The notes beneath the pieces are model-generated. The model was given only the letters and a program-made list of their open reading frames with translations. It searched no databases and had not been told where the DNA came from. A stretch of DNA of 33,682 nucleotides from Methanosarcina spelaei (lineage in GTDB: Archaea > Halobacteriota > Methanosarcinia > Methanosarcinales > Methanosarcinaceae), in contig NZ_LMVP01000335.1 of NCBI RefSeq assembly GCF_002287235.1, positions 1 to 33,682 on the forward strand, written 5' to 3'. Shown in pieces: positions 6,992 to 16,522 of the stretch (position 1 is the stretch's first letter; each line of letters opens with the position of its first letter). The translations under genes were made by a program, and so were the position numbers.

Positions 6992-7222
6992 ATGGTTTCA
7001 CAGAGTCCAGACAGTTCCAGCCTGGCAGAAGTGCTTGACAGGATTCTTGACAAAGGTATAGTTGTTGACGTATGGGCAAGAGTTTCACTTGTCGGTATTG
7101 AAATCCTGGCAATTGAAGCAAGAGTAGTTGTTGCATCTGTTGACACATTCCTGCACTATGCAGAAGAGATCACAAAAATCGAAATTGCTGCAAAAGAAGA
7201 AAAACCAGCTATTGCAGCATGA
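6992..7222 (+). CDS. gvpA: gas vesicle structural protein GvpA, copy 1
   Basis: A 76-residue protein with the unmistakable GvpA core: [43 protein letters not shown] read in consecutive parts. GvpA is the small hydrophobic protein that forms the ribbed gas-permeable wall of the vesicle. Helix 1 spans about residues 9-20, the beta hairpin about 25-50, and helix 2 about 52-62. The tail is Lys/Glu/Ala-rich. A GGTGA site (6980-6984) precedes the start. It is the first of three near-identical copies with a 267-bp period. It ends in TGA, the other two in TAA. Confidence 0.97.
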
Positions 7223-7258
7223 TCTCATAAAAACAGAATAAAAATTGGAGTGATGACA

Positions 7259-7489
7259 ATGGTTTCACAGAGTCCAGACAGTTCCAGCCTGGCAGAAGTG
7301 CTTGACAGGATTCTTGACAAAGGTATAGTTGTTGACGTATGGGCAAGAGTTTCACTTGTCGGTATTGAAATCCTGGCAATTGAAGCAAGAGTAGTTGTTG
7401 CATCTGTTGACACATTCCTGCACTATGCAGAAGAGATTACAAAAATCGAAATTGCTGCAAAAGAAGAAAAACCAGCTATTGCAGCATAA
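7259..7489 (+). CDS. gvpA: gas vesicle structural protein GvpA, copy 2
   Basis: This encodes the same 76-residue protein as copy 1. Besides the stop codon, I see one synonymous change (ATT for ATC near 7437). I chose ATG 7259 because it aligns with copy 1 and has the site TTGGAGTGA just upstream; an in-frame ATG nine bases earlier is less likely. The 36-bp spacer on each side of this copy is identical, so the repeat unit includes gene plus spacer. The copies are probably co-transcribed and raise the dose of wall protein. Confidence 0.97.
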
Positions 7490-7525
7490 TCTCATAAAAA
7501 CAGAATAAAAATTGGAGTGATGACA

Positions 7526-7756
7526 ATGGTTTCACAGAGTCCAGACAGTTCCAGCCTGGCAGAAGTGCTTGACAGGATTCTTGACAAAGGTATAGTTGTT
7601 GACGTATGGGCAAGAGTTTCACTTGTCGGTATTGAAATCCTGGCAATTGAAGCAAGAGTAGTTGTTGCATCTGTTGACACATTCCTGCACTATGCAGAAG
7701 AGATCACAAAAATCGAAATTGCTGCAAAAGAAGAAAAACCAGCTATTGCAGCATAA
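7526..7756 (+). CDS. gvpA: gas vesicle structural protein GvpA, copy 3
   Basis: The protein is identical to copies 1 and 2, with a TTGGAGTGA site before ATG 7526. Similarity to the other copies ends within about 25 bp after the stop. The sequence then runs directly into the small inverted-repeat element at 7779-7929, which may separate the gvpA transcript from the genes downstream. Confidence 0.97.
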
Positions 7757-9273: not shown

Positions 9274-10377
9274 ATGGTATATAAAGCGACGCATCAGAGA
9301 ATAATAAGGGGTAAACCTATTCACAAAACCTTAGAGGAAACAAAACAGGAATCAGTTGATGGCGATCTGAAAAATATAAATGAACCATTTAAGTCCAGTG
9401 CGAACTTAAAAAATAGTTATAAAGAAAAAAAGTATCTGGTTCCTGAAATGGAGTGTTTTATCAATAGTTCTGAAATCCAAGAATTAAGTGAAAGAATAAA
9501 ACTATGGGTAAAAGCCGGATACCCTGTACATTTGATTGGTCCTACAGGTTGTGGAAAAACAAGTCTTGCTGTACATATTGCAAAAGAACTTGGACGTCCT
9601 GTCGTATGGATTAATGGAGACGAGTCTCTTACGACAAAAGATCTCATAGGTGGATATGCTCAAATCAAGCAGGAGTCGATAAGGGACAATTATATTCATA
9701 ATGTACTAAAAAGTTCAGATGTCATAAAACCTGAGTGGACTGACAATCCTCTGGCTATTGCATGCAAGTACGGATATACTCTCATATATAACGAATTTTC
9801 CAGGGCAAAACCATTTGCAAATAACGTTTTACTCTCGGTTTTTGAAGAAGGGATACTTGAACTACCTTCCAGGTTTGGTGAGGAAAAATACATAAAAGTA
9901 CATCCGGATTTCAGGGCAATTCTGACAAGTAATTCGGTTGAGTACGCAGGAGTTCATGTTCCTCAGGACGCTTTGCTGGATCGAATGGTAGGCATATATA
10001 TGGACTACTATAGTTTTGAAACTGAAGTTCAGATAGTGAAAGGTCATACAGGCATATCTGAGAAAGAATCTGAAAAAATAGTATCTACCATCCGGAAAAT
10101 AAGAGATCAGACTACTGAAGCTCAGAAACCTGGAATCAGGTCTGGCATTATGGTTGGAAAAGCTGTGAAAAATTTGAATGATAATGTAAAAGATTATTTT
10201 GAACAGCTATTCGTCGATGTAATTGCAACAAAAACAAGTTCCAATGCTGAACTGCTTAAGAAAAAGAAACTCGTAATTGACGTCATATCAGAGCTGAACT
10301 CTGAAAATACAGATTCTAATGCTGAACCACATAGGAAAGAGAAGCCTGTAAATAAAGCAGTGTTAAAGACTGCGTAA
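9274..10377 (+). CDS. gvpN: gas vesicle assembly ATPase GvpN
   Basis: A 367-residue MoxR-type AAA+ ATPase. The Walker A motif GPTGCGKTS is at residues 89-97 and the Walker B-like TLIYNEFSRA at about 169-178. A SNSVEYAG segment and a LLDRM motif follow, as in GvpN/CbbQ/NirQ/MoxR proteins. GvpN is a cytoplasmic ATPase needed for vesicles to reach full width in haloarchaea. The N-terminal 50 residues are basic and poorly structured, and the C-terminal 35 are Lys/Glu-rich. An AGAGGAAAG site precedes ATG 9274. The order gvpA-(C)-N-O matches haloarchaeal clusters. The sequence is about 20 residues longer than typical GvpN, mainly at the ends. Confidence 0.95.
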   Translation: MVYKATHQRIIRGKPIHKTLEETKQESVDGDLKNINEPFKSSANLKNSYKEKKYLVPEMECFINSSEIQELSERIKLWVKAGYPVHLIGPTGCGKTSLAVHIAKELGRPVVWINGDESLTTKDLIGGYAQIKQESIRDNYIHNVLKSSDVIKPEWTDNPLAIACKYGYTLIYNEFSRAKPFANNVLLSVFEEGILELPSRFGEEKYIKVHPDFRAILTSNSVEYAGVHVPQDALLDRMVGIYMDYYSFETEVQIVKGHTGISEKESEKIVSTIRKIRDQTTEAQKPGIRSGIMVGKAVKNLNDNVKDYFEQLFVDVIATKTSSNAELLKKKKLVIDVISELNSENTDSNAEPHRKEKPVNKAVLKTA

Positions 10378-10410
10378 GTATTCAAAATACACTTGCGGAT
10401 TAATTAAAGT

Positions 10411-10460
10411 TGCGCTGGCGTATCTCTATGTAAGCAATAGATCACATTAACGCCACCGCA
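10411..10460 (+). other. GC-rich intercistronic hairpin between gvpN and gvpO
   Basis: TGCGCTGGCGT (10411-10421) pairs with ACGCCACCGCA (10450-10460) with one mismatch in 11, and CTAT/ATAG arms can pair inside the loop. It is clearly richer in GC than its surroundings. It could be a processing or stability element in the gvpNO mRNA, or a terminator that reduces readthrough to gvpO. Confidence 0.5.
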
Positions 10461-10602
10461 GTATGTTTCATGAAATTGGATAATAATTTAAACTTTGTTA
10501 GTTTCAGCAAAATTTCGCAAATGAAAGAGTGGATAAGTAAGGATAAGTGTAGAACAACTGTCCCTATAAATGCGAAATTTAAAAGGAATTTGGAGAGTTT
10601 TT

Positions 10603-10953
10603 ATGGAATTAAAATCTGGGAAAAAAATCAGAGGCAAAGAAAAAGGGGAAGAAATGAACTCTAATGTAAAAGAAACCCAAACCAGGACAATTTCATTAAT
10701 TGAAAACCTTGATAAAGCAATTTTTGTGATTGAGAAAATTACCCGAAAGAAAGCGGAAGGAGTAGTAAGTGTATCCAGAGAAGAGGATATCACAAAATTC
10801 ATAGTTGAGGTCCTTGAAAGAAAGTCAATTCCCGATACACAGGATATACTGAGTATCTATGAAATGAACTTTAACTCAAGTATGGAGATTATGGACTATA
10901 ATAAAATAGGGATGCGGCGTAGATCTGACATGTTCGTACAAGAAGAGGACTAA
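10603..10953 (+). CDS. gvpO: gas vesicle protein GvpO
   Basis: ATG 10603 gives 116 residues, with a TTGGAG site about 9 bp upstream. ATG 10570 and ATG 10654 are alternatives in the same frame. The C-terminal half has the GvpO (PF05800) pattern: FIVEVLERKSIPDTQDILSI, then YEMNF...EIMDYNKIGMRRRSDMF. In halophiles GvpO is essential for vesicle formation and has been linked to gvpACNO mRNA level or stability. Its N-terminal half here is Lys/Glu-rich. It follows gvpN after a 225-bp gap with a stable hairpin. Confidence 0.9.
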   Translation: MELKSGKKIRGKEKGEEMNSNVKETQTRTISLIENLDKAIFVIEKITRKKAEGVVSVSREEDITKFIVEVLERKSIPDTQDILSIYEMNFNSSMEIMDYNKIGMRRRSDMFVQEED

Positions 10954-11273
10954 AGATCAAAATATAATATATCTAGCTGGTTAACGATTCCATGCACAGC
11001 TTTGAACGTTGAATATATTTTTAATGTAATTTATACGCTAATTTAGAGAAGAACATTCACTGGAAGCTCTGCATATTAACCGAACACGTATGGACATATA
11101 ATGCTTGTTCTTATTGAAAGCAAGTCCGCGTAAGGAATCAAAATTCTTGATGCGTTTAATAATATTTCGATATAACTTCAAACCTACGTAAAAACGATTC
11201 GATAAGCATAGCAAATGAAGTTTTGAATTGATATTTAATGTAAACTGCTTTGCGAAGTTGGGAAGGGTATTCG
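10954..11273. other. intergenic region upstream of gvpF
   Basis: No gene is seen in 320 bp. Several AT-rich TATA-like words occur (about 11010-11030 and 11160-11175), so gvpF-gvpG-12189 could have its own promoter. A single GGTTAAC near 10979 resembles the centre of the gvp palindrome but lacks the flanking arms. Confidence 0.35.
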
Positions 11274-11933
11274 ATGAAGCTCGCGCCTGAAAATAGTAAG
11301 TATGTCTATTGCATAATCAAATCCCAAGAAGAAACTATAAGCTTTGGTAATATAGGTTTTCAGGGACACGAGGTATATACACTGGACTGCATGGATTTTT
11401 GTCCTGTTGTAAGCGATGAGCCATTTAAAAAATATGAAATAGATAACGAAGAGGAAATAAATATTCATCAAAATGTAGTCAAGGAAGTAATGAAAGATTA
11501 TAGCATTATCCCGGTAGCATACGGAATGGGATTCAAGAATAAAAAACTAATACAAGTCTCCATACGTGCAGGAAAAAAAGCTATTAAAAAATCTTTTACA
11601 CTGGTGGATAATAAGGTAGAACTCGGGATAAAAATATTTTTACCAAAGGATACTGAAATAGACAATGAAAAGAGAGAACATTGTAAAACTGAATCAACTG
11701 AAAACTTTGAGAAAATAACTTCTCAATCGAAGAGTCTTAACCTTTTTAGCCCACGCCTTTTGATGAATACTACTTATCTTGTAGATAAGGAGAAAATTCA
11801 AATTTTCTCAGATGAAGTTGAGAAACTTAAACTAAAGTATAGTGATTATAAATTTCGATATAGCGGACCCTGGCCACCATATAATTTTGTAGATATACAT
11901 ATATTATCAAATAAGAAGGGTGGCTTCAGGTAA
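11274..11933 (+). CDS. gvpF: gas vesicle protein GvpF (GvpF/L family)
   Basis: A 219-residue protein of the GvpF/L family (PF06386). ATG 11274 is preceded by GGGAAGGG. It begins with the family strand KYVYCIIKSQ and ends with the signature YSGPWPPYNFVDIHI, shared with GvpL at 14212. GvpF is a minor vesicle protein that contacts GvpA in halophiles and may keep it soluble before assembly. The central part (about residues 120-170) is divergent. The stop overlaps the next start (TAATG), so gvpF and gvpG are translationally coupled. Its position right after gvpO and before gvpG supports the name gvpF over gvpL. Confidence 0.92.
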   Translation: MKLAPENSKYVYCIIKSQEETISFGNIGFQGHEVYTLDCMDFCPVVSDEPFKKYEIDNEEEINIHQNVVKEVMKDYSIIPVAYGMGFKNKKLIQVSIRAGKKAIKKSFTLVDNKVELGIKIFLPKDTEIDNEKREHCKTESTENFEKITSQSKSLNLFSPRLLMNTTYLVDKEKIQIFSDEVEKLKLKYSDYKFRYSGPWPPYNFVDIHILSNKKGGFR

Positions 11934-12214
11934 TGTTTGTCTTTGATGATATTCTTTTGAGAATGATAGGAATTTCAATTCCTGGACTCGATCTCATTTC
12001 AAACATAGAAACAATAAGGGACTTTGCTTACAGAGAACTTTACAACGTGGATAAAATTAAAAACAAAATCAAGGAAAATCAACTGCTTTACGAATTTGAT
12101 GAGATCTCGACAGAAGAATATGAAGAAAAGAAAAGCGAGCTCATGAGACAATTAAAATTTGCAGAAAGAGTTTTGGAGACGAATCTTAATGTCAGAACCG
12201 ACATATTTTCCTGA
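11933..12214 (+). CDS. gvpG: gas vesicle protein GvpG
   Basis: A 93-residue protein starting at the TAATG overlap with gvpF. The N-terminus is hydrophobic and the rest is helical: NKIKENQLLYEFDEISTEEY then EEKKSELMRQL. This is the GvpG family (PF05120), normally about 80 residues and encoded directly after gvpF. GvpG is a minor protein needed for vesicle formation and interacts with GvpF/L-type proteins. The next frame (ATG 12189) overlaps its last 26 bases. Confidence 0.92.
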   Translation: MFVFDDILLRMIGISIPGLDLISNIETIRDFAYRELYNVDKIKNKIKENQLLYEFDEISTEEYEEKKSELMRQLKFAERVLETNLNVRTDIFS

Positions 12215-12497
12215 TAAATTCTCGAAAAAAGGAGCGGAAAAAAATTCAAAACTTATAAAAGCCAAAGAGAAGTCTTTTGGGTTGTACAACTTTCTTAAAT
12301 TACTTGAAGAAATGGATAATCAAGGTATAACTCAAAAGTCCGGATCAGGCAAAATCGATGGGCCTTTCAGCTCAAAAGCTGAATATAATTACAATATAAC
12401 TATTGATACACACTCAAGTGATTTTCACACTCTGAAAACTCACCCCAACCTTTTAACCAAAAACCCTGTGAAACGCCATCGTAAAAAGCGAATATAA
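12189..12497 (+). CDS. small protein resembling the N-terminal part of GvpH
   Basis: A 102-residue basic protein whose ATG 12189 lies inside the end of gvpG, so it is translationally coupled. It has the stretch FGLYNFLKLLEEMDNQG followed by SGSGKIDGPFSSKAEYNYNI. The pattern (short leucine-rich helix, then G.G, then Y.Y.I) resembles the N-terminal segment I recall in haloarchaeal GvpH, where it precedes an Hsp20 domain. Here there is no Hsp20 domain and the tail is Lys/Arg/His-rich. It occupies the H slot after gvpG, while a full Hsp20-type GvpH lies at 13253. It may be a split or diverged GvpH relative; this is an inference. Confidence 0.55.
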   Translation: MSEPTYFPDKFSKKGAEKNSKLIKAKEKSFGLYNFLKLLEEMDNQGITQKSGSGKIDGPFSSKAEYNYNITIDTHSSDFHTLKTHPNLLTKNPVKRHRKKRI

Positions 12498-12747: not shown

Positions 12748-13161
12748 ATGAGCGGAAATAGTAATGCAAGTGTTGTAAGAGAATCCGCGGGACTTGTGGA
12801 TGTAATAGATCGAGTTTTGGATAAAGGACTTGTACTTAATGCTGATATTTCAGTATCCATCGCGGGAACTGAGCTTCTTGGAATAAAAATTACGGCTACC
12901 CTGGCATCCTTTGAAACCGCAGCAAAATATGGACTTGAGTTTCCTTCGGGAACAAATCTTGATGCTCCGGCCTGGAAGAGAACAGATATAAATTATGCAA
13001 ATTGTCCTGAGTGTGGGAATCGTAGAGAAGAAAAACTCTTAATCGAAAAAGGATGCCCGATTTGCGGATGGACAAGCCCACTTTCCAAGAAAAAACATGC
13101 AATAATCCCTGCAAGTTACATAGAACTCGATCAGGATGGGAACTACATTCCTGAGAAATAA
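12748..13161 (+). CDS. gvpJ: GvpJ with C-terminal zinc ribbon
   Basis: A 137-residue protein. Residues about 14-70 are a GvpA paralogue of the J type: LVDVIDRVLDKGLVLNADIS, ELLGIKITATLASFETAAKY, GLEFPSG. The ETAA.YGLEFP segment is typical of GvpJ. After it, residues 86-107 form a zinc ribbon with CPECG (Cys86, Cys89) and CPICG (Cys103, Cys106). GvpJ is a minor GvpA-like component thought to shape the conical vesicle tips or start assembly. The ribbon is not part of the GvpJ proteins I know and could bind nucleic acid or a partner protein. An AGAGGT site precedes the ATG. It is the first gene after the second gvp palindrome. Confidence 0.9.
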   Translation: MSGNSNASVVRESAGLVDVIDRVLDKGLVLNADISVSIAGTELLGIKITATLASFETAAKYGLEFPSGTNLDAPAWKRTDINYANCPECGNRREEKLLIEKGCPICGWTSPLSKKKHAIIPASYIELDQDGNYIPEK

Positions 13162-13252
13162 AATTAGCTGTAATAGGTATTGCTGTCAGTTTATTACTTT
13201 ATAAATTACCTTGTATAGGAGTGGCAACCCGATTAATTGGGAGGGATCAATC

Positions 13253-13909
13253 ATGGGCAATGATGATGAGAAAAATGAAAATGAGAAAGAAACAAAAACT
13301 GACATAAAAAAAGAAGACCTGGAAAAAAAAGTCCAATACTTGGAAAATAGAATTAAAGAACTTGAACAGAGAGTAGAAGAACGCAGAACTACAGATTATG
13401 AACATGCTAGCTTAGTAGGAGATATTGTAGGATCAATTCCAGGCTTCAGCAGAATCATAAAAGTTCTCGAAAAGACCTCTCCAGAATTCAGGCAGAAAAT
13501 TACTGAGACAGATATGGAAATAAAACATAGGCTTGAAACTGGATGGAGTAGCAAACCAGTAGTAAGCTATGGACTATCAATAAGACCTCTGTCTACAAGA
13601 AACAAATCTTCTAATGTTCCAGGTACAGTTTCAAGAGAAAGGAAAAAAGTAATGTTAGAGGGTTCAGAGCCAGCAGAACCTATTTTTGATGTGTTTGAAA
13701 AACAGGACTTTGTTTATGTAATAGCTCAAATTCCTGATGTAGAGGAGCAAGATATAAACATAGAAATTCAGGATGACGTGCTGGATATTTCTGCAGGTAT
13801 TTACAGTAAAAAGATTTCATTGCCATGTAAATCGGGGTCAATTGAAGAAAAAAGCTACAAGAATGGTGTACTTCAGCTGAAGATAAAAAGGGAAAAAAAT
13901 GTCAATTAA
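13253..13909 (+). CDS. gvpH: Hsp20-like gas vesicle protein GvpH
   Basis: ATG 13253 (site GGGAGG) gives 218 residues. Residues 20-46 form a charged coiled coil (KVQYLENRIKELEQRVEERR). Residues 50-110 are a linker with SYGLSIRPL. Residues 143-213 form a small heat-shock (alpha-crystallin) domain: FDVFEKQDFVYVIAQIPDVE up to NGVLQLKIKR. This matches the GvpH type of Hsp20 protein, which binds GvpF/L-like proteins and may act as a chaperone in assembly. The N-terminal coiled coil is longer than I recall for haloarchaeal GvpH. Its stop overlaps the gvpK start by 11 bases. Confidence 0.8.
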   Translation: MGNDDEKNENEKETKTDIKKEDLEKKVQYLENRIKELEQRVEERRTTDYEHASLVGDIVGSIPGFSRIIKVLEKTSPEFRQKITETDMEIKHRLETGWSSKPVVSYGLSIRPLSTRNKSSNVPGTVSRERKKVMLEGSEPAEPIFDVFEKQDFVYVIAQIPDVEEQDINIEIQDDVLDISAGIYSKKISLPCKSGSIEEKSYKNGVLQLKIKREKNVN

Positions 13910-14273
13910 TATTGATGAAAACAATTTAAAAAAAGGATTATTGGGTCTTGTTGTAGCCCTTGTTGAGATTATCCAGGACTTACTTGAGAAACAGGCATTG
14001 TTGAGAATAGAAAACGGATCTTTGAGTGAAGAAGAGGTTGAAAGGCTCGGAGAAGCCCTTTTTGACCTTCAAGAAGCACTTGAAGCCATAAAAATTGATA
14101 ACGAGCTTGAAGATTGTGTTTATTCTGTGCGAGAAGGATTGGATAAGGTAGTAGATCAGGTAATTGATAAATTTTTAAATCCAACAAGGTGGATTGAGGA
14201 AGCTGATAAAAATGAAAGAAATAACACAGGAGAGTTGCCTATATCTCTACTCAATTGTGAACACAGCCGCTGA
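13899..14273 (+). CDS. gvpK: gas vesicle protein GvpK
   Basis: A 124-residue protein of the GvpK family (PF05121), starting at ATG 13899 within the end of gvpH. It shows the family pattern GLLGLVVALVEIIQDLLEKQ, then ALLRIENGSLSEEEVERLG and EALFDLQEALE. It is helical and soluble. GvpK is a minor component required for vesicle formation in haloarchaea and Bacillus. The last 20 residues are also covered by the start of gvpL in another frame, giving a 62-base overlap. Confidence 0.93.
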   Translation: MSINIDENNLKKGLLGLVVALVEIIQDLLEKQALLRIENGSLSEEEVERLGEALFDLQEALEAIKIDNELEDCVYSVREGLDKVVDQVIDKFLNPTRWIEEADKNERNNTGELPISLLNCEHSR

Positions 14274-15012
14274 ACAAAATCTGGGACCTATTGGGATTAA
14301 TGACAATTCTGTGTACACAATTGTTTATAGAGATATTGCTGCAGCTGTACATTTCTCAGAGACAAAACCCAAAGCAGCAAAGGATGAACAACAGGCAAAA
14401 GAATGGATATTTTCTCATAATTATGCAATTGATAAGCTCACTGAAAAATTCAACACCATCCTCCCGTTTTCTTTCGGGTGTGTAGCACAAGGGAACGATG
14501 AAATCATAAGATCCTGGATGCAGAAGAACTATGATTCTTTTAAAAGTGAGCTTGAAAGACTGAGTGATACTGCAGAATATTTAGTTCAAATCTTCTATGA
14601 CCCAAAAGTACTTGCTGAAAAAGTCCTCAAAGAGAACCCTGATCTTCAAGCATTGAATGCAAAAATAGATGGAGGGTCCAAGGGGAAAAACTACATCCTT
14701 AAAAAACAGTTTGATGTCCGGCGGGACCACGCCATAATGAACGAGCTTTCGATACTTGGAACCGAGTTTGGGAACGCTATATATGAGAATACAATGGAGA
14801 TGATTCATGAAGAAAAAAGTTTCCATGTTCCGGAAAAATATAAGGGCAAAAAATCTGTGATTACACTTTCTTGTCTTGTTTCCAATAGAAGTGTTGAAAA
14901 TTTAGGGCATGTCCTTGATCAAATAAATCAACGTGAAGGTTTTACAGTCAGATTTACGGGACCATGGGCACCGTTTAGTTTTGTTGATCTTAAAAGGGAT
15001 TTTCAAACATGA
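14212..15012 (+). CDS. gvpL: gas vesicle protein GvpL (GvpF/L family)
   Basis: ATG 14212 gives 266 residues. The family N-terminus (CLYLYSIVN) starts at residue 9 and the signature FTGPWAPFSFVDLKR is at the C-terminus. There is an ILPFSFGCVA strand near residue 87. GvpL is a minor GvpF/L-family protein that in halophiles interacts with several accessory Gvps and may serve as a platform for early assembly. The start must be at or very near 14212 to include the first strand, so the 62-base overlap with gvpK is real. The stop overlaps the gvpM start (ATGA). Confidence 0.92.
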   Translation: MKEITQESCLYLYSIVNTAAEQNLGPIGINDNSVYTIVYRDIAAAVHFSETKPKAAKDEQQAKEWIFSHNYAIDKLTEKFNTILPFSFGCVAQGNDEIIRSWMQKNYDSFKSELERLSDTAEYLVQIFYDPKVLAEKVLKENPDLQALNAKIDGGSKGKNYILKKQFDVRRDHAIMNELSILGTEFGNAIYENTMEMIHEEKSFHVPEKYKGKKSVITLSCLVSNRSVENLGHVLDQINQREGFTVRFTGPWAPFSFVDLKRDFQT

Positions 15013-15554
15013 TACCGGAACGTGAAGGGGACTCCTTGGTAGAACTTCTTGATAGGTTACTTAATAAAGGGCTTGTTCTTAATGCTGATGTTCTTATTTC
15101 AGTTGGAGGCATACCTCTAATAGGCTTGAGTCTCAGACTTTTAGCTGCTGGAATTGAAACAATGCTTGAGTATGGGCTTTTTGAACAATTCGACAAGGAT
15201 ACAAGAGCCTGGGAACTTGAGCATAGAATAAACAAGCCAGTTCTTATGTCGGAAGAAGAAGTTATGCTGAGATTTTACGGTTCTTATTCTCATAACCAGA
15301 GTAAAACCTGGAACTACTGTTTTATATATTTAACAAATCGCAGAATTTTTGGATGGAATAAAAGTATTAATAAAATCTTATATGAAGTGTCGCTAAAAAA
15401 TATACTGGAAATTACTGTTATTACAAACATTCACGAGGAAAAAGAAAGGGAAGAAATATGTATCAAAACTAATGATGACAATTTTCTCTACGTCCACAGC
15501 CAAAACATAAATGAAATTTATTGCAAACTTATAAAAGAAGTCCACTGCATATAA
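15009..15554 (+). CDS. gvpM: GvpM with C-terminal PH/GRAM-like domain
   Basis: A 181-residue protein starting at the ATGA overlap with gvpL. Residues 8-60 are a GvpA paralogue of the M type (SLVELLDRLLNKGLVLNADV, then GIPLIGLSLRLLAAGIETML). Residues about 78-178 are an added domain with alternating strands, EEEVMLRFYGSYSHNQ...NYCFIYLTNRRIFGW...LYEVSLKNILEI. The YLTNRRI..W turn followed by a strand with L..I is like bacterial PH or GRAM-type domains. GvpM is a minor hydrophobic vesicle protein, normally about 80 residues. The extra domain could bind membrane or a partner. Position after gvpL supports gvpM. Confidence 0.85.
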   Translation: MIPEREGDSLVELLDRLLNKGLVLNADVLISVGGIPLIGLSLRLLAAGIETMLEYGLFEQFDKDTRAWELEHRINKPVLMSEEEVMLRFYGSYSHNQSKTWNYCFIYLTNRRIFGWNKSINKILYEVSLKNILEITVITNIHEEKEREEICIKTNDDNFLYVHSQNINEIYCKLIKEVHCI

Positions 15555-16144
15555 CTTGGCTGATTAAAGTGTGCTGACACATCATTTTGCAATTAATGGG
15601 CAAAAGACATAAAATATTTTTAACCATTTTCAAAATAGAATTGAAATTCTGTAAATTTATAGACTAAATAGTTGAGAAATAATAAAATAAGAAAATTAAT
15701 TATTTGGTTTGTTTTTATAACACGTGATGTGTATTAATATCTTAACATGTTTTCATTAATTTTTATTATTGTTGGATAATTATCCTAGTTAATAATGTAA
15801 GTTCATAGAAGTTGTTATATATTAGAAGCCTGGTATATTTGAACGATAACTATGGCTTAATATGATTTTATGAGTCCTTGGTGACATCAATTGTTGAACT
15901 AAGAATGGAAGTTTTAAGCTCATTGCATTTCAAAAGTACATACATTAGTCAATTTGGATTTAAAGCTGATAAATAAAAATTGTTAAACATAACAAGCTCA
16001 TCTCAAAGCTTGATAACAATTTGGATTTAAAGCTGATAAATAAGAATTGTTAGACATAACAAGCTCATCCCAAAGCTTGATAACAATTTATATTTAAAAT
16101 TAAAAGAGTGTGCCACAATTATGCCTTCCAACCCAGGTGAAACA
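15555..16144. other. 590-bp upstream region of the PadR-like gene
   Basis: I see no gene in this AT-rich stretch. Its right end carries a 67-bp direct repeat with palindromic cores (15950-16083); the rest shows only scattered TATA-like words. Confidence 0.45.
15950..16083 (+). repeat. 67-bp tandem direct repeat with palindromic core
   Basis: Two adjacent 67-bp units (15950-16016, 16017-16083) differ at only a few bases. Each holds the inverted repeat TTGTTA-N4-TAACAA (15980-15995 and 16047-16062). They end 62 bp before the preferred start of the PadR-like gene and look like paired operator sites, possibly for autoregulation. Confidence 0.75.
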
Positions 16145-16522
16145 ATGAATCTTGAAAATGATAACTATGTAGTTCAACCTACAGGATCGCCTGTACATAA
16201 CTGTTATGTGCAGGAACTTATAAAGAGACATCTTGACATAGCAGTACTTTGCGTAATCAGGAACAATTCGATGTCAGGGCAGGATATTGCAAAAGAGATT
16301 TTCTATAAGCACCAGGTTTATGTGTCTCCAAGCGCGATATATTCATTATTATACTCTTTAAAAAATCAAGATATACTTGAGATAGATACAGTAAAAGGTG
16401 ACCTGAGAACTAAGTGTTATGTTCCCACTGAAAAAGGAAAACAGATAATCACTAAACAGCTACAAGAGTTTAGAGAAGCTCTCATGTATTTTCTACTACA
16501 AATAAATAAGAATTTGCCTTAA
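16145..16522 (+). CDS. PadR-like winged-helix transcriptional regulator
   Basis: I prefer ATG 16145 (125 residues) because AGGTGA lies four bases upstream; ATG 16121 has no ribosome site. The helix-turn-helix reads SGQDIAKEIFYKHQVYVSPS followed by AIYSLLYSLKNQDILEID and a wing ending in YVPTEKGKQII, the layout of PadR-family regulators (helix 3 with a P/S-x-x-IY..L motif, then Y.LT..G). The C-terminal helix probably dimerises. PadR proteins are usually repressors that often control their own genes. Two copies of a palindrome lie upstream. It sits just after the gvp block, so gvp control is a reasonable guess, not shown. Confidence 0.75.
   Translation: MNLENDNYVVQPTGSPVHNCYVQELIKRHLDIAVLCVIRNNSMSGQDIAKEIFYKHQVYVSPSAIYSLLYSLKNQDILEIDTVKGDLRTKCYVPTEKGKQIITKQLQEFREALMYFLLQINKNLP

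Follow-up and report, generated by a model that had tools for sequence, protein, structure and literature searches.

The 181-residue open reading frame that closes the gas vesicle (gvp) cluster of Methanosarcina spelaei is a genuine GvpM carrying a PH/GLUE-like domain. The cluster lies in a stretch of 33,682 nucleotides (contig NZ_LMVP01000335.1), hereafter called the window. Structure modelling makes it almost certain that the C-terminal part takes a PH fold of GLUE/GRAM type and is fused to GvpM, and the whole is probably explained as a GvpM whose PH domain serves as a docking surface. No paper linking gas vesicles with PH domains was found in the open-access literature, subscription papers lying outside the search, and within that literature the PH-bearing GvpM is an unreported variant, widespread rather than exotic. 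The features of the cluster are as follows.

6992..7756, + strand: three gvpA genes in tandem, near-identical
9274..10953, + strand: gvpN and gvpO (gvpN TIGR02640, 1e-102; GvpO, 9.2e-17)
11250..12497, + strand: gvpF, gvpG and probable gvpI (PF06386, 2.1e-38; PF05120, 8e-11)
12159-12497, + strand: probable gvpI, by position only
12748..13161, + strand: gvpJ with a C-terminal zinc ribbon (PF00741, 3.5e-14; CPECG...CPICGW in the sequence)
13211..13909, + strand: gvpH, Hsp20-like (NCBIfam archaeal Hsp20, 2.3e-17)
13899..14273, + strand: gvpK (PF05121, 9.6e-18)
14194..15012, + strand: gvpL (GvpL_GvpF, 1.6e-52)
15009..15554, + strand: gvpM, GvpM core plus PH-like domain, open frame of 181 aa
15009..15206, + strand: GvpA-family GvpM core, residues 1-66 (PF00741, 1.3e-14; NCBIfam halo_gas_GvpM, 80.9 bits, below its cut-off)
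15207..15242, + strand: linker between the core match and the first PH strand, residues 67-78
15243..15551, + strand: PH/GLUE-like domain, residues 79-181 (AlphaFold2 model, Vps36/EAP45 GLUE match, invariant residues)

The cluster is complete and runs in the order gvpA-N-O-F-G-(I)-J-H-K-L-M, with gvpM last after gvpL; the gvpL stop and the gvpM start overlap by 4 bases, which fits translational coupling of the two genes. The GvpM core that the preliminary description had placed at the N-terminus was borne out, as Pfam Gas_vesicle (PF00741) covers residues 9-47 and the best NCBIfam model for residues 1-66 was halo_gas_GvpM, which stayed short of a cut-off of 109 tuned on haloarchaea. The protein shares with the 84-residue GvpM of Halobacterium salinarum the GvpA-family core and the position at the end of a gvpFGHIJKLM-type cluster, whereas the haloarchaeal tail is short and polar and the PH-like domain is absent there. 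A PadR-like regulator gene (16121-16522) lies downstream of the cluster, and a weak homologue of it was seen near the gvp cluster of genome G192 (L144). The zinc ribbon (CPxCG...CPxCGW) at the C-terminus of gvpJ is shared by the window and the relatives L141, L098, L105 and L106, and the haloarchaeal GvpJ-like frames inspected were without it.

The C-terminal part alone matched nothing in Pfam and NCBIfam, and the fold call therefore needed relatives and structure. The window GvpM reached none of the PH-superfamily Pfam models (E up to 1), phmmer with P0001 against PDB sequences returned GvpA chains and chance matches only, and the domain profile found just BBS5 among PDB sequences, weakly (E 0.046). 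AlphaFold2, given an alignment of 14 rows, predicted seven strands, all between residues 85 and 163, and a helix at the C-terminus (167-180) with pLDDT of about 90, the GvpA-like core being modelled at low confidence (pLDDT 36-54). Among 999 solved chains aligned to this model the human EAP45 GLUE domain came first (Z 15.2, 2.1 A over 103 residues); next in rank were the PH domain of GRK2, a PH-like domain from Leishmania and the PH domain of yeast Vps36 (Z 13.8). The curated models pointed the same way in GvpM relatives, where L039, L040 and L123 (from the actinobacterial-phylum sample) exceeded the Vps36_ESCRT-II gathering score of 24.1 with 26.8, 27.7 and 29.2 bits, and L040 and L123 exceeded that of GRAM (23.6) with 25.1 and 27.7 bits; bPH_3 was matched by relatives below cut-off, and neither GRAM nor bPH_3 was reached by the window GvpM itself. 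The Vps36/EAP45 GLUE domain of ESCRT-II is the best match by structure and, in relatives, among the curated PH-superfamily models of Pfam, but identity is about 13%, it is fused there to an ESCRT subunit and here to a gas-vesicle protein, and the likeness described concerns the fold, a shared ubiquitin or PI3P site being hypothetical. Across 14 relatives aligned at 30-76% identity to the window GvpM, W101, Y107, T109 and R112 in the YLTNRRI region, and further on L124 and I132, were invariant, and the motif W-x5-Y-x-T-x2-R, part of which the preliminary description had noticed, is present in 14/14 rows and sits on and beside strands 2-3. The strand-rich domain and the PH/GRAM-like fold, both proposed from the sequence before these analyses, are upheld. 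The two-domain relative L039 was predicted as two consecutive PH units, each of seven strands and a helix; Foldseek matched a two-domain relative best to structures including BBS5, tandem-PH histone chaperones and CheF (7ovp), and the profiles of domains 1 and 2 were homologous (E 1.9e-9).

The fusion had been presented as a departure from a GvpM of normally about 80 residues and, by implication, as a rarity, and the survey reversed both points, since that size holds for haloarchaea only and the PH-bearing form is usual elsewhere in the samples. Gas_vesicle proteins were found in 57 and the GvpM-PH fusion in 19 of the 393 genomes of the window's phylum, and the domain is carried by 19 of the 23 genomes that are gvp-positive and non-haloarchaeal. 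It was absent from all 34 genomes presumed to be haloarchaeal (families f12, f17, f22, f23, f35 and f37, assigned from GvpA and GvpM sequences), and ten haloarchaeal GvpM that were inspected end in short tails lacking it. Among the gvp-positive non-haloarchaeal genomes, G404 and G293 gave no GvpM-grade match, and G207 and G236 encode a short GvpM whose terminal stub, '...VEGEEVVQKEKM' or '...VEGEEIVQE', looks like the beginning of a PH-like domain in sister genomes. Of the 321 genomes of Brevibacterium's phylum, nine have a core of GvpM grade (at least 115 bits), and all nine carry the domain, in open frames of 246-427 aa; the Gemmatimonadota and Chloroflexota surveys each yielded it in one genome. 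The domain occurs in other archaea and bacteria too and is often duplicated: proteins of ~300-340 aa with two PH-like domains, the second diverged, were seen in a Nanoarchaeota MAG, a Gemmatimonadota MAG and Actinomycetota relatives (Brevibacterium, Nesterenkonia, Kocuria and Georgenia), and GvpM of the L039, L040 and L123 type have a GvpJ-like zinc ribbon after the two domains.

Some records in these samples are irregular. The GvpM of L036, titled Cloacimonadota, is 70% identical to that of the window, and that of L040, titled Nitrosotalea, is identical in sequence to the GvpM of G281, a genome from the window's phylum; these titles are at odds with the gvp sequences, probably through mis-binning or misnaming. 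The gvpM frame of Nesterenkonia pannonica (L052/L053) looks broken, with a 113-aa frame and the PH parts in other frames, and the region is present twice in the record. The domain match of G135 (E 5.9e-7) contains two internal stops.

In a tree of 58 GvpM cores the haloarchaeal and other short GvpM fell inside the PH-bearing clade, the haloarchaeal nesting with support of 96/70 and 98/89, and at least four changes of state were required, one of which (L052) is a broken gene and not a clear loss. The tree rests on 72 columns, with many forks unresolved, and does not include short homologues from bacteria, Bacillus GvpS among them, so that it supports an ancestral domain without proving it; on balance the domain was likely ancestral in GvpM and later lost, apparently in haloarchaea and in the f9 archaea. 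The short haloarchaeal protein would then be a reduced form in which docking is done by the short tail. Most GvpM experiments that we found used the 84-residue haloarchaeal protein, seemingly the unusual, domain-less form. Core-only GvpM of family f9 archaea were located at L142:5984-6289 (- strand), L143:1472-1759 (+ strand) and in L101 (G281), and those of L142 and L143 end in a short remnant like the start of the PH domain, which suggests secondary truncation. An ArsA/Get3-like ATPase frame (GKGGVGKT or GKGGVGKST) directly adjoins gvpJ/gvpM in the same two clusters (L142:4938-5966, - strand; L143:1720-2784, + strand).

GvpM is among the least understood parts of gas-vesicle initiation. GvpJ, GvpM or GvpS have been suggested as nucleation factors that are absent from intact mature vesicles (PMC9994262), and the GvpM of Halobacterium, the one protein for which this is known, is needed for gas vesicle formation (PMC8716928). 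We propose that GvpM may start the vesicle as a GvpA-like subunit whose core is built into the nucleus at the tip, and that the PH-like domain, facing the cytosol, would offer GvpF/GvpL, GvpH and possibly GvpJ a surface on which to dock; the accessory machinery so docked would deliver and insert GvpA. GvpF and GvpH, and GvpJ weakly, bind to the last 25 aa of haloarchaeal GvpM (PMC6107691), and vesicles still form when these residues are removed (PMC8716928, PMC6107691), so that C-terminal docking may be non-essential.

A second line comes from archaeal CheF, whose two PH-like domains are likely protein-interaction platforms with phosphate binding unlikely (PMC9126983). Like the multi-domain GvpM relatives, CheF has tandem PH-like domains, in a prokaryotic, motility-related adaptor, but it bears a C-terminal CheY-binding domain and no gas-vesicle core, and the window GvpM has a single PH-like domain. 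The domain profile matched CheF weakly (E 4.9e-4, one genome of 393), and two GvpM relatives matched PF04283 (CheF-arch) weakly in turn (E 0.02-0.06). Furthermore, the domain profile found a second protein encoded within ~3 kb of gvpM in six genomes from the actinobacterial-phylum and Chloroflexota samples, at the loci L124/L131/L137, L130, L132, L133 and L134 (G757, G727, G675, G643 and G794) and in G1017 (L146). Those inspected combine one or two PH-like domains with a downstream helix-turn-helix and, where the sequence was followed to its end, a region of Hsp20 type that resembles GvpH; the gvpH of the window itself has no PH-superfamily match. The PH-HTH layout of this protein resembles CheF, and G643 also has a stand-alone PH-like frame of 144 aa (L138). 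The CheF parallel, the binding of GvpF, GvpH and GvpJ to the haloarchaeal C-terminus and the second PH-bearing protein favour docking of proteins, a role that we regard as evenly poised. A broader and more tentative proposal, to which we give somewhat less than an even chance, is that GvpM was ancestrally a PH-domain adaptor, a nucleator with one or two GLUE/CheF-like PH domains recruiting the chaperone complex, of which haloarchaeal GvpM is a reduced form, and that PH domains carry out the docking step still missing from the account of how vesicles are seeded. That the domain recurs in the second protein of the gvp clusters and also in archaeal CheF suggests a common prokaryotic docking module, and as a folded unit it offers a soluble, expressible handle for finding GvpM partners.

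Other roles were weighed against docking. The domain might act by bulk alone, blocking polymerisation of GvpM into ribs and confining it to the tip or nucleus with no partner involved. The core does belong to the shell-protein family, the suggested nucleation factors are missing from mature vesicles, and either one or two domains are tolerated, all of which would suit such a cap; yet capping independent of the domain surface does not require a fold conserved across phyla, and haloarchaeal GvpM functions without any such domain, and we consider this reading unlikely.

The preliminary description had the domain anchoring nascent vesicles to membrane or protein, of which the protein half fits the evidence given above and the membrane half found no support. 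A PH-like domain binding archaeal membrane lipid could hold the nascent vesicle at the membrane, as phosphoinositide binding is common in eukaryotic PH domains and the fold is common to lipid-binding ones. Against this, the net charge of the domain is close to neutral or negative (-4 to +1 across 14 relatives), no conserved basic cluster of the phosphoinositide-pocket type was present in the beta1-beta2 region of these sequences, the invariant residues seem to belong to the core of the fold, and the PH-like domains of CheF were judged unlikely to bind phosphate. Membrane anchoring would accordingly seem the weaker reading beside protein docking as far as the sequences can tell, and we consider it improbable.

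It could also be argued that in Methanosarcina the domain is an inherited accessory with little present function that is drifting towards loss. The apparent loss in haloarchaea and f9 archaea, where a short GvpM ends in a remnant, and the faster evolution of the PH part relative to the core (higher dN/dS) would agree with this, as would a dN/dS of 0.79 in the closest pair (window and G078), which offers few changes to score. However, dN/dS of the PH part lay between 0.13 and 0.37 in most other pairs of Methanosarcina homologues with measurable dS, and both gvp clusters of the genome keep the domain, which renders drift very unlikely.

That a sequencing or assembly error joined gvpM to an unrelated downstream frame, the artefact that the preliminary description had named as a possible refutation, had no point in its favour and is refuted, its probability being negligible, by the same fusion in independently assembled genomes, nine further Methanosarcinaceae with GvpM relatives of 44-94% identity over nearly the full length, and in a paralogue within the window's own genome (G000, contig C37, L140) that is 53% identical over residues 1-176. 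This paralogue belongs to the second gvp cluster, whose N, O, F, G, I, J and H genes lie on contig C129 (L141) and whose end of H, K, L and M lie on C37.
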